Part shown: positions 45,780-50,348 of the stretch, piece after piece
How positions within the stretch are numbered: the first letter of the stretch is position 1
Layout of the letters: each line of letters starts with the position of its first letter
DNA from: Fimbriimonadales bacterium
GTDB lineage: Bacteria; Armatimonadota; Fimbriimonadia; Fimbriimonadales; GBS-DC
Length of the DNA: 64,000 bases
Direction of reading: 5' to 3'
Assembly (NCBI GenBank): GCA_025998675.1
Contig: AP024673.1
Coordinates: forward strand, 1,143,221-1,207,220
Notes under the pieces: generated by a model
Databases searched by the model: none
The model's input: only the letters and a program-made list of their open reading frames with translations
What the model was told of the DNA's origin: nothing
Program-made: the position numbers and the translations under genes

Positions 45780-47825
45780 TCAGTTCACAACGGTCGGTTG
45801 AGGCGCGTTCGCCTCAATCCGCTCCAGCAGTATCTCGGCGATGTCCCGGACGGGCACGGCGTCGTCTTTCGTTTTGATGCTGTCGGAGACCATAATCATA
45901 CAGAAGGGGCAGCCGACAGCGACCGTGCGCGCGCCCGTTTTGAGCAGCTCCTCCGCGCGGATGACGCCCGGACGCTCGTGGGGCAGCTCGTCCATCCACA
46001 TGCGCCCGCCGCCCGCGCCGCAGCAGAAGGTGCGGTCGCGATGGCGCTCTGGTTCGGCGAGCGTCGCGCCCGAAGCCTGCAACACCTCGCGCGGCGCGTC
46101 GTGGATTTTGTTCACCCGCGCCAGGTAGCACGGGTCATGGAACGCAATCGCGCCGTTCTCCATCGGCGGCAGCTTGGGAAGCCTGCCCTGCTGAATCAGC
46201 TCCGCCAGCAGCTGTGTGTGATGCACCACCTCGAAGCTCGCGCCGAGCTTTTTGTACTCGTTCTTAATCGTGTGCAGGCAGTGCGGACACATCGCCACGA
46301 TTCGGCGCGGGTTGACCGCCTTGAGCGTCTCTACATTCTGCATCGCCAGCTCCTGGAACAGCAGGTCTTCGCCCAGTCGGCGTGGGGTATCGCCTGTGCA
46401 GCGCTCGTCGGGACCCAGCACGGCGAAGTTGACGCCCGCGCGCTGGAGCAGCTTCACAATCGCGCGCGCGACCTGCTGCCCGCGCCCGTCATACGCGCCC
46501 GCACAGCCGACCCAGAACAGCACCTCAAAGTCGGGATTCTCGCGCACGGTGGGCACATTCAGCCCCTGCGCCCACTTCATTCGCTCCGACAGAGGCAGCC
46601 CCCACGGGTTGGACTGCGTCATCGTGCGCTGGAGCGTGCCCGCCGCCGTACCGCGCAGGTTGCCCTCCGCCACCCGATGGCGACGCATCTCCATAATCAG
46701 CGTCGGATGCTCAATCAGCACGGGGCACTCGTTGTTGCACGCGCCGCAGGTCGTGCAGGCGAACAACTCCTCGTCGCTAATCACCTGCGTCAGGTCGTCG
46801 CCCTTGCCGTTCGCCATCGCGTCGCGCAGCTTCTCCACAATTAGCTTGGGGTTGAGCGGCTTGCCCGTCGCATAGGCGGGGCAGACGCGCTCGCACCGCC
46901 CGCAGCCCATGCAGGCGTCCAGACTCATCAGATGCCAGCGCGAGAACTCGCCTATCGAATTAACCCCGATGCGACCCGTCTGCTCCACGCGCTCCAGACT
47001 CTCGATGCTGGGCACATTCGGCAAGTAATGGGGCTTGTAGTACGCCACAACGGGCGCAAGGAACCAGTGGCGCAAGCGCGTGAAGGGCAACACGGCGAAC
47101 CAGCTCGCGATGGTGAGTGAGTGGAACCACCACCACAGCCGATAGCCGCTCACCGAGATGTTCTCGAACAGCGGCGCGAAGGTATAGCCCACGAACGACC
47201 ACACCTGCGCGTACTGCGGGCGCGGGGGATTCATAAACTCAGGATTGCGCTCAATCGCGATGCGCGCGCTCTCCAGCGCGTAGCCGTTCAGGCAGATGAG
47301 CAGCAGCAGCCACACCGCTATACCGTCCAGTCGCTCAAGGCTCACGGACGCGGGCTTTTGCGCATGGCGTCGCCACAGCGCCAGAATGCATCCGAAAATC
47401 ACCCCCAGCCCGAACAAGTCCAGCGTGACCTCGTACAGGATATAATACAGCCCCTTGTGGAACCATATCCCCTGCTCCATGAAGATATGTGAGCCGATTT
47501 CCGTCCACTCGGCGATTGCCAGCAGCGTCGTGCCGATGAGCAGCATCACGAAGCCCGCGTACAGGGGCAGGTGGAACAGCGTCGCGAAGCGGTGGCGGGG
47601 CACTTTTTTCTGTCCCAGCGCGTAGCCGAGCATATTCTGCAGCCGCGCGCGCACCGGCAACGGCTCTGTGTCGGGCTGCCCCTGTCGCCAGAGTTGCAGC
47701 CGCTTCCCGTACCACACCACGCCCACGCCCAGCGAACTCAGGATAATCCCATAAAACACGGCTTTCCACAGCGGCGTGATGCCGATATAGGTGTGTCGCG
47801 TAATCAGCTCCCAGTCCCAGCTCAT
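45780..47825 (-). CDS. Membrane Fe-S oxidoreductase (HdrC/HdrB-like, ETF:quinone-reductase type)
   Basis: A 681-aa protein: a NarI-like membrane part with six helices (residues 1-290), then two 4Fe-4S clusters (CMGCGRCERVCPAYATG and CTTCGACNNECPV, about 310-385), then two CCG domains of the HdrB type (CPHCL...FHDPCYL and FCCGAGGGRMWM). This layout is the one known for membrane ETF:(methyl)menaquinone oxidoreductases in anaerobes and some Firmicutes, which pass electrons from fatty-acid or other ETF-linked oxidations to quinone. No etfAB is in the window. ATG 47825 has AGGAGG seven bases upstream. The 5' leader carries a terminator, see 47941-47980. Confidence 0.8.
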   Translation of the reverse strand: MSWDWELITRHTYIGITPLWKAVFYGIILSSLGVGVVWYGKRLQLWRQGQPDTEPLPVRARLQNMLGYALGQKKVPRHRFATLFHLPLYAGFVMLLIGTTLLAIAEWTEIGSHIFMEQGIWFHKGLYYILYEVTLDLFGLGVIFGCILALWRRHAQKPASVSLERLDGIAVWLLLLICLNGYALESARIAIERNPEFMNPPRPQYAQVWSFVGYTFAPLFENISVSGYRLWWWFHSLTIASWFAVLPFTRLRHWFLAPVVAYYKPHYLPNVPSIESLERVEQTGRIGVNSIGEFSRWHLMSLDACMGCGRCERVCPAYATGKPLNPKLIVEKLRDAMANGKGDDLTQVISDEELFACTTCGACNNECPVLIEHPTLIMEMRRHRVAEGNLRGTAAGTLQRTMTQSNPWGLPLSERMKWAQGLNVPTVRENPDFEVLFWVGCAGAYDGRGQQVARAIVKLLQRAGVNFAVLGPDERCTGDTPRRLGEDLLFQELAMQNVETLKAVNPRRIVAMCPHCLHTIKNEYKKLGASFEVVHHTQLLAELIQQGRLPKLPPMENGAIAFHDPCYLARVNKIHDAPREVLQASGATLAEPERHRDRTFCCGAGGGRMWMDELPHERPGVIRAEELLKTGARTVAVGCPFCMIMVSDSIKTKDDAVPVRDIAEILLERIEANAPQPTVVN

Positions 47826-47940
47826 CGTTGCGCCTCCTGTTTCAGGGCGGCAGGGCGCTGCGTGCGGCGCACCCAGCGCGCTATCGCCCCGATTCGAACA
47901 GCGGGTTAAAGATACCGCATGCGGGCGTAGACTCCTGCAG

Positions 47941-47980
47941 AAAAAAAATCGCGCCGTACGGGGCGAGAACCGCACGGCGC
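47941..47980 (-). terminator. Intrinsic terminator in the leader of the Fe-S oxidoreductase gene (attenuator or small-RNA end)
   Basis: Minus strand: GCGCCGTGCG, 10-base loop, CGTACGGCGC (10-bp stem with one G-T pair), then GATTTTTTTT (T8 at 47941-47948). It lies about 115 bases upstream of the ATG and about 57 bases downstream of a TATACT -10 (48043-48048). RNA from that promoter would end here after about 95 nt, giving either a small RNA or conditional termination. No known riboswitch was recognised. Confidence 0.75.
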
Positions 47981-48037
47981 ATCGTTTACCCTCGCGCAGG
48001 CATTAGGGGAGAGGACTCTAAGCCTCCGATGATGACG

Positions 48038-48097
48038 CCTATAGTATAGTTGGCAGGGAGTTAACGAGAAGTTAAGTCGTGTTAGGGGTTGGTTAAG
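48038..48097 (-). promoter_or_regulatory. Promoter with four Pho-box-like direct repeats
   Basis: On the minus strand TATACT (48043-48048) is preceded, after 11 bases, by four direct repeats: GTTAAC, CTTAAC, CCTAAC and CTTAAC, with starts at 48060, 48071, 48081 and 48092 on the plus strand, spaced 11, 10 and 11. One-turn repeats ending 10-11 bases before a -10 are the layout of PhoB/PhoP-bound promoters (TTAACA-type in Bacillus, CTTAACCT in cyanobacteria). The crcB -10 (48108-48113) lies 10 bases to the other side. Confidence 0.55.
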
Positions 48098-48119: not shown

Positions 48120-48508
48120 ATGTTGCGGACGGCGTTGCTGGTGGGTCTGGGCGGCTTTGTGGGCGCGAATCTGCGCTACTGGCTCGGCGGCTGGATGGCG
48201 CAGAAGTTCGGCGTGCTGTTCCCGCTGGAGACGATGCTCATCAACATCTCCGGCTCGTTCGCGCTGGGGCTGTTTATGACGCTCGCGCTGCACTACACCT
48301 GGGCGCCCGAATGGCGACAGGCAATCGCTATCGGGTTCCTCGGCTCGTTCACGACCTACTCGACCTACGAGTACGAGAGCCTGCGCCTGTTGCAGGAGGG
48401 CGCGTGGCTGAAGGCGGGGCTGAACCTGTTCGGCAGTCTCGTGCTGGGGCTGATAGCGGTGATTGCGGGCGTCGCGCTCGGACGCCTGCTGACTGGAGGC
48501 ACAGAGCC

Positions 48509-48512
<4 letters not shown>
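48120..48512 (+). CDS. crcB: Fluoride channel CrcB/Fluc
   Basis: A 130-aa, four-helix fluoride exporter subunit. Family marks: GGFVGANLRYWLG, NISGSFALGLF and GFLGSFTTYSTYEYE with the pore TT and Ser. Fluc forms a dual-topology dimer that lets F- out. ATG 48120 is six bases behind TATCCT (48108-48113), a leaderless start. Its stop overlaps the DUF190 start (ATGA). I looked for a fluoride riboswitch upstream and did not find one. Confidence 0.93.

Positions 48513-50348
<1,836 letters not shown>

Follow-up and report, generated by a model that had tools for sequence, protein, structure and literature searches.

The C-rich motifs of RoxS and RsaE, small RNAs (sRNAs) of Firmicutes, are suited to pairing with ribosome-binding sites. 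Other sRNAs have been linked to phosphate. PsiR1 of Synechocystis 6803 is a short transcript induced by phosphate depletion and is described along with the phosphate regulon (PMC5386190), and phosphate-responsive sRNAs have been reported in Sinorhizobium (PMC8829014). With regard to promoters, PMC1906773 describes the SphR box as a tandem arrangement of CTTAACCT separated by 3-bp linkers, and locates the PhoB box of E. coli 10 bp upstream of the -10 element. In Armatimonadota, no sRNA was described in the literature titles and beginnings of abstracts that were searched. Here, we analyzed one stretch of 64,000 nucleotides (referred to below as the window) from a Fimbriimonadales bacterium and found in it a putative sRNA gene whose promoter carries a box of the type that also precedes phosphate genes.

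Results

Organization of the locus

The gene is located on the minus strand, and its boundaries, promoter and terminator could be read directly from the DNA (Table 1). Tandem half-sites are followed after 11 nt by TATACT, an RNA of ~95 nt, a hairpin with T8 and, 115 bases further on, the ATG (47825) of an Fe-S oxidoreductase gene. This is the anatomy given in an earlier note on this DNA, in which the Pho-type box upstream of the RNA was missed. Along the RNA, an invariant C-rich block comes first, then a small core hairpin and then the terminator hairpin with T8. The RNA is present in a single copy in its own genome (G000).

Table 1. Positions of the predicted RNA gene, its parts and its neighbors in the window.
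Feature	Position	Strand	Remarks
Pho-type box	48060..48097	-	CTTAAC 48097-48092, CCTAAC 48086-48081, CTTAAC 48076-48071, GTTAAC 48065-48060; spacing 11, 10, 11
-10 box TATACT	48043..48048	-	11 nt past last half-site; without -35 box
Small RNA, ~95 nt	about 47941..48037	-	start near 48036 predicted from the -10 box
C-rich motif GUCCUCUCCCC	48006..48016	-	invariant, putative pairing region; comparison of copies
Core motif UGCCUGCGCGAG	47991..48002	-	invariant; comparison of copies
Terminator hairpin, 11 pairs	47951..47980	-	loop UUCUCGCC at 47969-47962; terminator scan, covariation
T8 run, terminator end	47941..47948	-	sequence, terminator scan
Fe-S oxidoreductase gene	45780..47825	-	CCG, Fer4 and nitrate-reductase-gamma-like domains; downstream neighbor, outside the element
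crcB	48120..48512	+	divergent neighbor, outside the element

The hairpin was flagged by the terminator scan (47981-47950; 12 pairs, 9 of them G-C). The number of terminator-like sites in the scanned 2 kb was not above chance (2 found versus 1.4 expected), and folding was mildly unusual (z = -1.97; 9 of 200 shuffles folded equally well); this site was lifted above chance because the transcribed stretch is conserved in relatives and the stem covaries. The site went unflagged in the promoter scan; it has no good -35 hexamer, as expected of a promoter that depends on an activator.

On the plus strand, crcB is followed by a gene for a DUF190 protein, and the two (48120-48847) are likely a fluoride-export pair, for which no fluoride riboswitch was found at the Rfam threshold. 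The best candidate for such a riboswitch of crcB (RF01734, plus strand 47999-48048) scored 13.7 bits against a threshold of 34 and was rejected because copies for which CrcB was not detected conserve this stretch just as well and the conservation tracks the minus-strand RNA.

Conservation and structure of the RNA

A BLAST search with a 306-base query revealed matches to the RNA in 10 of 61 genomes, including its own. The match stopped at the T-run (query 182-186) in 8 of 10 places in relatives and extended past it towards the Fe-S gene in G006 and G004. With a covariance model made from 11 copies, matches were obtained in 12 of the 291 Armatimonadota genomes searched, 11 of them within the window's family (18 genomes). 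The match in another family (G053, 30.6 bits) was dropped upon inspection by eye, as it had neither the core motifs nor the box and was similar in the hairpin alone. Among family genomes that were at least 90% complete, 9 of 11 had the RNA; the model did not find it in the nearly complete G010 (93%) and G015 (100%). An exact-pattern scan of an 84,980-species genome collection yielded 10 stretches, titled Fimbriimonadales or Armatimonadetes/Armatimonadota metagenome-assembled genomes, with one Bacterium HR15.

Three segments were invariant in all 12 copies, namely GUCCUCUCCCC, UGCCUGCGCGAG and UCUCGCC of the terminator loop. G000 and G006 have 3 differences over 101 positions of the RNA, and their adjacent Fe-S proteins are 62% identical. 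The most distant copy (G017, 31 bits), which was outside the covariance-model input, keeps the box, the 11-nt spacing, TATACT and the three motifs; its terminator stem is largely different, still pairing. Judged by these sequences, the RNA family appears to have been kept almost unchanged across this hot-spring family of Armatimonadota. One metagenome-assembled genome contained two diverged copies (G013:C202:4157-4252 and G013:C46:535-639), which may be either paralogues or the result of a mixed bin.

The terminator stem was examined in a MAFFT alignment that ignored structure. In 12 copies (11 distinct), 97.5% of cells were paired and 6 of 11 pairs had changed on both sides. None of 500 shuffles matched the stem on pairing and two-sided change, and shifting the partner destroyed the signal; the count of further pair types was not above that of shuffles (7 observed versus a shuffle mean of 7.7). 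The core hairpin (CCCU/AGGG with UGC/GCG) was unvarying in 11 copies and interrupted in G017, and it therefore has no covariation support. In addition, every one of the 12 copies has a GCGAG in the core that is complementary to a CUCGC in the terminator loop, where covariation is impossible because both sides are invariant. No alternative, anti-terminator fold was conserved in the consensus fold. Complementary blocks of the GGAGGCTTAGAGTCCTC type, to which the earlier note had drawn attention, are indeed present; among the copies their GUCCUC side is invariant and their GGAGG side is variable.

We also considered whether this segment could encode a short peptide (MPARG or similar) instead of a non-coding RNA, since most copies contain the frame ATG CCT GCG CGA GGG TAA. 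However, the stop codon is gone in G013a and G014, the ATG is gone in G017, and wobble positions are conserved like the remaining positions, which makes a peptide gene scarcely credible.

No Rfam family reached its gathering threshold for this RNA. Rhizobiales-2 (RF01723; 27.9 bits versus 40) and ar14 (RF02344; 20.9 versus 58.8) were below their thresholds, and the sub-threshold matches of these two and PtaRNA1 rest mainly on the hairpin with the C-rich loop (alignments of Rhizobiales-2 and PtaRNA1). None of the three was detected in six homologous loci, which were searched as 17.6 kb and thus gave less chance for weak matches. The idea that the RNA is a CsrA sponge was set aside; GGA is confined to the variable 5' part.

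Relationship to neighboring genes

The Fe-S gene was located behind the RNA in 5 of 12 copies (G000, G006, G008, G004 and G007), with gaps ranging from ~115 to ~700 bp (some 370 and 700 bp in two copies), and CrcB was the divergent neighbor in 3 of 12. Neither was detected within the 3-18 kb examined around 6 of 12 copies; some contigs were short, so that absence is not always proven. These data bear on the two possibilities raised in the earlier note, a riboswitch-like leader or an independent small RNA. If the RNA were a leader or attenuator of the Fe-S gene, its terminator would be conditional and read-through would express the gene; in agreement with this, the RNA is on the strand of this gene and close upstream of it in the window, and the same arrangement recurs in the four relatives named above. 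However, the leader was rejected because the downstream neighbor is not constant: for 7 of the 12 copies no Fe-S gene turned up in the surroundings examined, and for the others its distance from the RNA varies. The end of the conserved match at the T-run in most relatives, and compensatory change that keeps the terminator stem with no conserved competing pairing, also argue against a leader, leaving it very improbable. Comparison of the copies instead supports an independent small RNA, conserved among changing neighbors; its own promoter, its intrinsic terminator and its conservation without fixed neighbors are features of trans-acting intergenic sRNAs.

Conservation separate from that of the RNA was also seen in G008, G007 and G009 for a stretch immediately upstream of the Fe-S gene (47872-47938, minus strand). 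This stretch is possibly the gene's own promoter or leader.

Pho-type box and promoter

All 11 copies with upstream sequence had three or four half-sites of the (C/T)TTAAC type, arranged as direct repeats 10-11 bp apart. In 9 of these 11 copies, a hexamer matching the -10 box at 4 or more of 6 positions was found exactly 11 nt past the last half-site, the exceptions being G013b (GATAAT at 10 nt) and G014 (only 3 of 6 matches at 11 nt). The middle spacing was 10, not 11, in nearly all copies and 11 in G017. Earlier patterns with three half-sites at fixed spacing, which gave one unrelated match or none, missed the RNA's own box because of this spacing of 10.

A looser pattern of two half-sites, YTTAACNNNNNYTTAA, occurred 11 times in the RNA's own genome versus 2 times for a backward control; the box of the RNA is outside these 11 because its last half-site is GTTAAC. 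Using Pfam or TIGR00972, we found that 4 of the 11 boxes preceded genes for a PstS-type binding protein (PF12849), PstB (the best of the genome, 419 bits), Porin_O_P (then PstS-type and permease genes) and PhoD (PF09423); a second PstB gene was ~5 kb beyond the boxed Porin_O_P gene. The others preceded one weak phytase-like gene (below cut-off), three pilin-like genes (one identified by scan as DUF1559/N_methyl, the other two by eye) and one gene for an exported protein that matched nothing in Pfam, and two were repeat copies. Boxes of the pilin-like/exported group were at G000:C1:1228957, 1997910 and 2668245. The sites G000:C1:1344783-1344798 and 2107825-2107840 share the same upstream stretch, which includes the Pho-type box, and diverge past it, as at the border of a repeated element. 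Hexamers similar to a -10 element were also present behind the boxes of pstB (TATCCT, 12 nt), porin (GATAAT, 11), phoD (TATAAT, 10), phytase-like (CACAAT, 11) and, at 10-12 nt, two pilin-like genes; pstS had only CATGCT (3 of 6) at 11.

A stricter box, CTTAACNNNNNCTTAA, was then scanned over the 18 family genomes and gave 111 matches versus 13 for the backward pattern. Seven were this RNA; 4 of the 104 other matches were dropped as they were at contig ends, and 100 were examined, with Pfam run on representatives only for the genes behind them. On the phosphate side were 28 boxes (PstB 9, alkaline phosphatase 8, PstS 7, porin 3 and PhoD 1). Phytase-like (3, weak) and metallophosphoesterase (2) genes were also found, and a large group of 47 comprised DUF1559 pilin-like proteins (24, plus 1 by tblastn) and another cluster of exported proteins (22). 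The remainder were small clusters, single genes or no gene. The pilin-like and exported proteins (family loci L188-L283) have no known role in phosphate metabolism.

The candidate regulator is a PhoB-like (PhoB/OmpR-type) protein (G000:C1:1660713-1661372) that scored 249.8 bits, under the PhoB cut-off of 296.2; of 14 control genomes, 2 exceeded this value. There are several PhoB-like response regulators. PhoU is also present. Within L020 8206-10645 (G000:C1:1254205-1256644), its gene is beside a dnaA-like gene (read, unscanned) and away from both pst loci.

The 47 boxes before pilin-like or exported proteins suggest a secreted arm of the phosphate response. They also mean that the regulator might not be dedicated to phosphate alone, and they speak for a reading in which the sRNA is independent and its OmpR/PhoB-family regulator answers another signal, such as cell envelope or surface growth, with phosphate genes being only part of the regulon. 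This reading is further favored by the presence of several PhoB-like response regulators, the best of which is below the PhoB cut-off. On the other hand, where a box is followed by a metabolic gene with a name, that gene is in the great majority of cases one for phosphate uptake or a phosphatase (28 of the 100 boxes in the family and 4 of the 11 in the RNA's own genome), and the box is similar to the published Pho box of SphR. We therefore consider a different signal improbable. Control of the RNA by a PhoB-type regulator under phosphate starvation is most likely, because the same box precedes pst, porin, phoD and alkaline phosphatase genes, and the arrangement of Pho-box-type tandem repeats at a fixed distance from the -10 hexamer is that of a Pho regulon. 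As the switch of the RNA resembles that of phosphate-scavenging genes, the RNA is probably made when phosphate runs out.

Search for targets

GUCCUCUCCCC is complementary to purine-rich ribosome-binding sites. Across the 18 family genomes, GGGGAGAGG-N2..9-RTG was no more frequent than its backward control, which was inflated in several genomes. Inspection of 46 ATG matches led to two orthologous pairs, one of them presumably YvcK/CofD-like by its motif; this pair was traced through 16 of the 18 genomes, in most of which the 9-mer was lost, and the 9-mer seemed to overlap the end of the preceding reading frame. In a second search, for the exact complement of UGCCUGCGCGAG in 18 genomes, no target was claimed among the 50 loci read, which were part of all matches; recurring sites were mostly antisense to long reading frames, and others were inside a reading frame. 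Overall, the scans of family genomes showed no enrichment and no convincing conserved target, and since neither pattern search gave a usable one, the target side of the model remains inference.

Discussion

Taken together, these features make it likely that the locus is a stand-alone gene for a trans-acting sRNA, controlled through a PhoB-type box, induced by phosphate scarcity and acting by pairing with ribosome-binding sites. A PhoB-type response regulator would bind the YTTAAC-type direct half-sites (48097-48060) and recruit RNA polymerase to a promoter with a -10 element and no -35 element. An RNA of ~95 nt (about 48036 to 47941) would then be made at scarce phosphate, with transcription stopping at the hairpin and T8. 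The RNA probably acts in trans, its invariant C-rich motif, and perhaps also UCUCGCC of the terminator loop, pairing with purine-rich ribosome-binding sites of several mRNAs, which would lower the translation of these mRNAs. A more elaborate scheme, which we regard as rather doubtful, is an RNA branch of the phosphate response, not described before, in which GCGAG of the core would kiss CUCGC of the loop, pairing with a target ribosome-binding site would open the kiss, and many phosphate-costly mRNAs would be repressed.

With this locus, Armatimonadota gain a defined sRNA family and a usable picture of a Pho regulon, including the box sequence, its spacing to the -10 hexamer and member genes. 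A strongly conserved and independent phosphate-linked sRNA with an invariant C-rich core would also offer a direct test of whether unrelated lineages likewise save phosphate by sRNAs.

Judging from its sequence features, the RNA is a new family of a known kind, a putative phosphate-regulated sRNA. Its promoter is similar to the Pho box promoters of SphR and PhoB in having tandem YTTAAC-type direct repeats ~11 bp apart, ~11 nt before the -10 element; it differs in that the box here would control a non-coding RNA and the middle spacing is usually 10 bp. Rhizobiales-2 RNA and ar14 have hairpins with C-rich loops, as does the RNA described here. With RoxS and RsaE, it shares a short single-gene organization, an intrinsic terminator and C-rich motifs that suit pairing with ribosome-binding sites; in contrast to them, it has no Rfam match at threshold, and its regulator is different. 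Compared by description and not by sequence, PsiR1 is likewise a short RNA of phosphate stress; it belongs to another phylum and is reported to be missing from a close strain, whereas the RNA found here is kept across the family.
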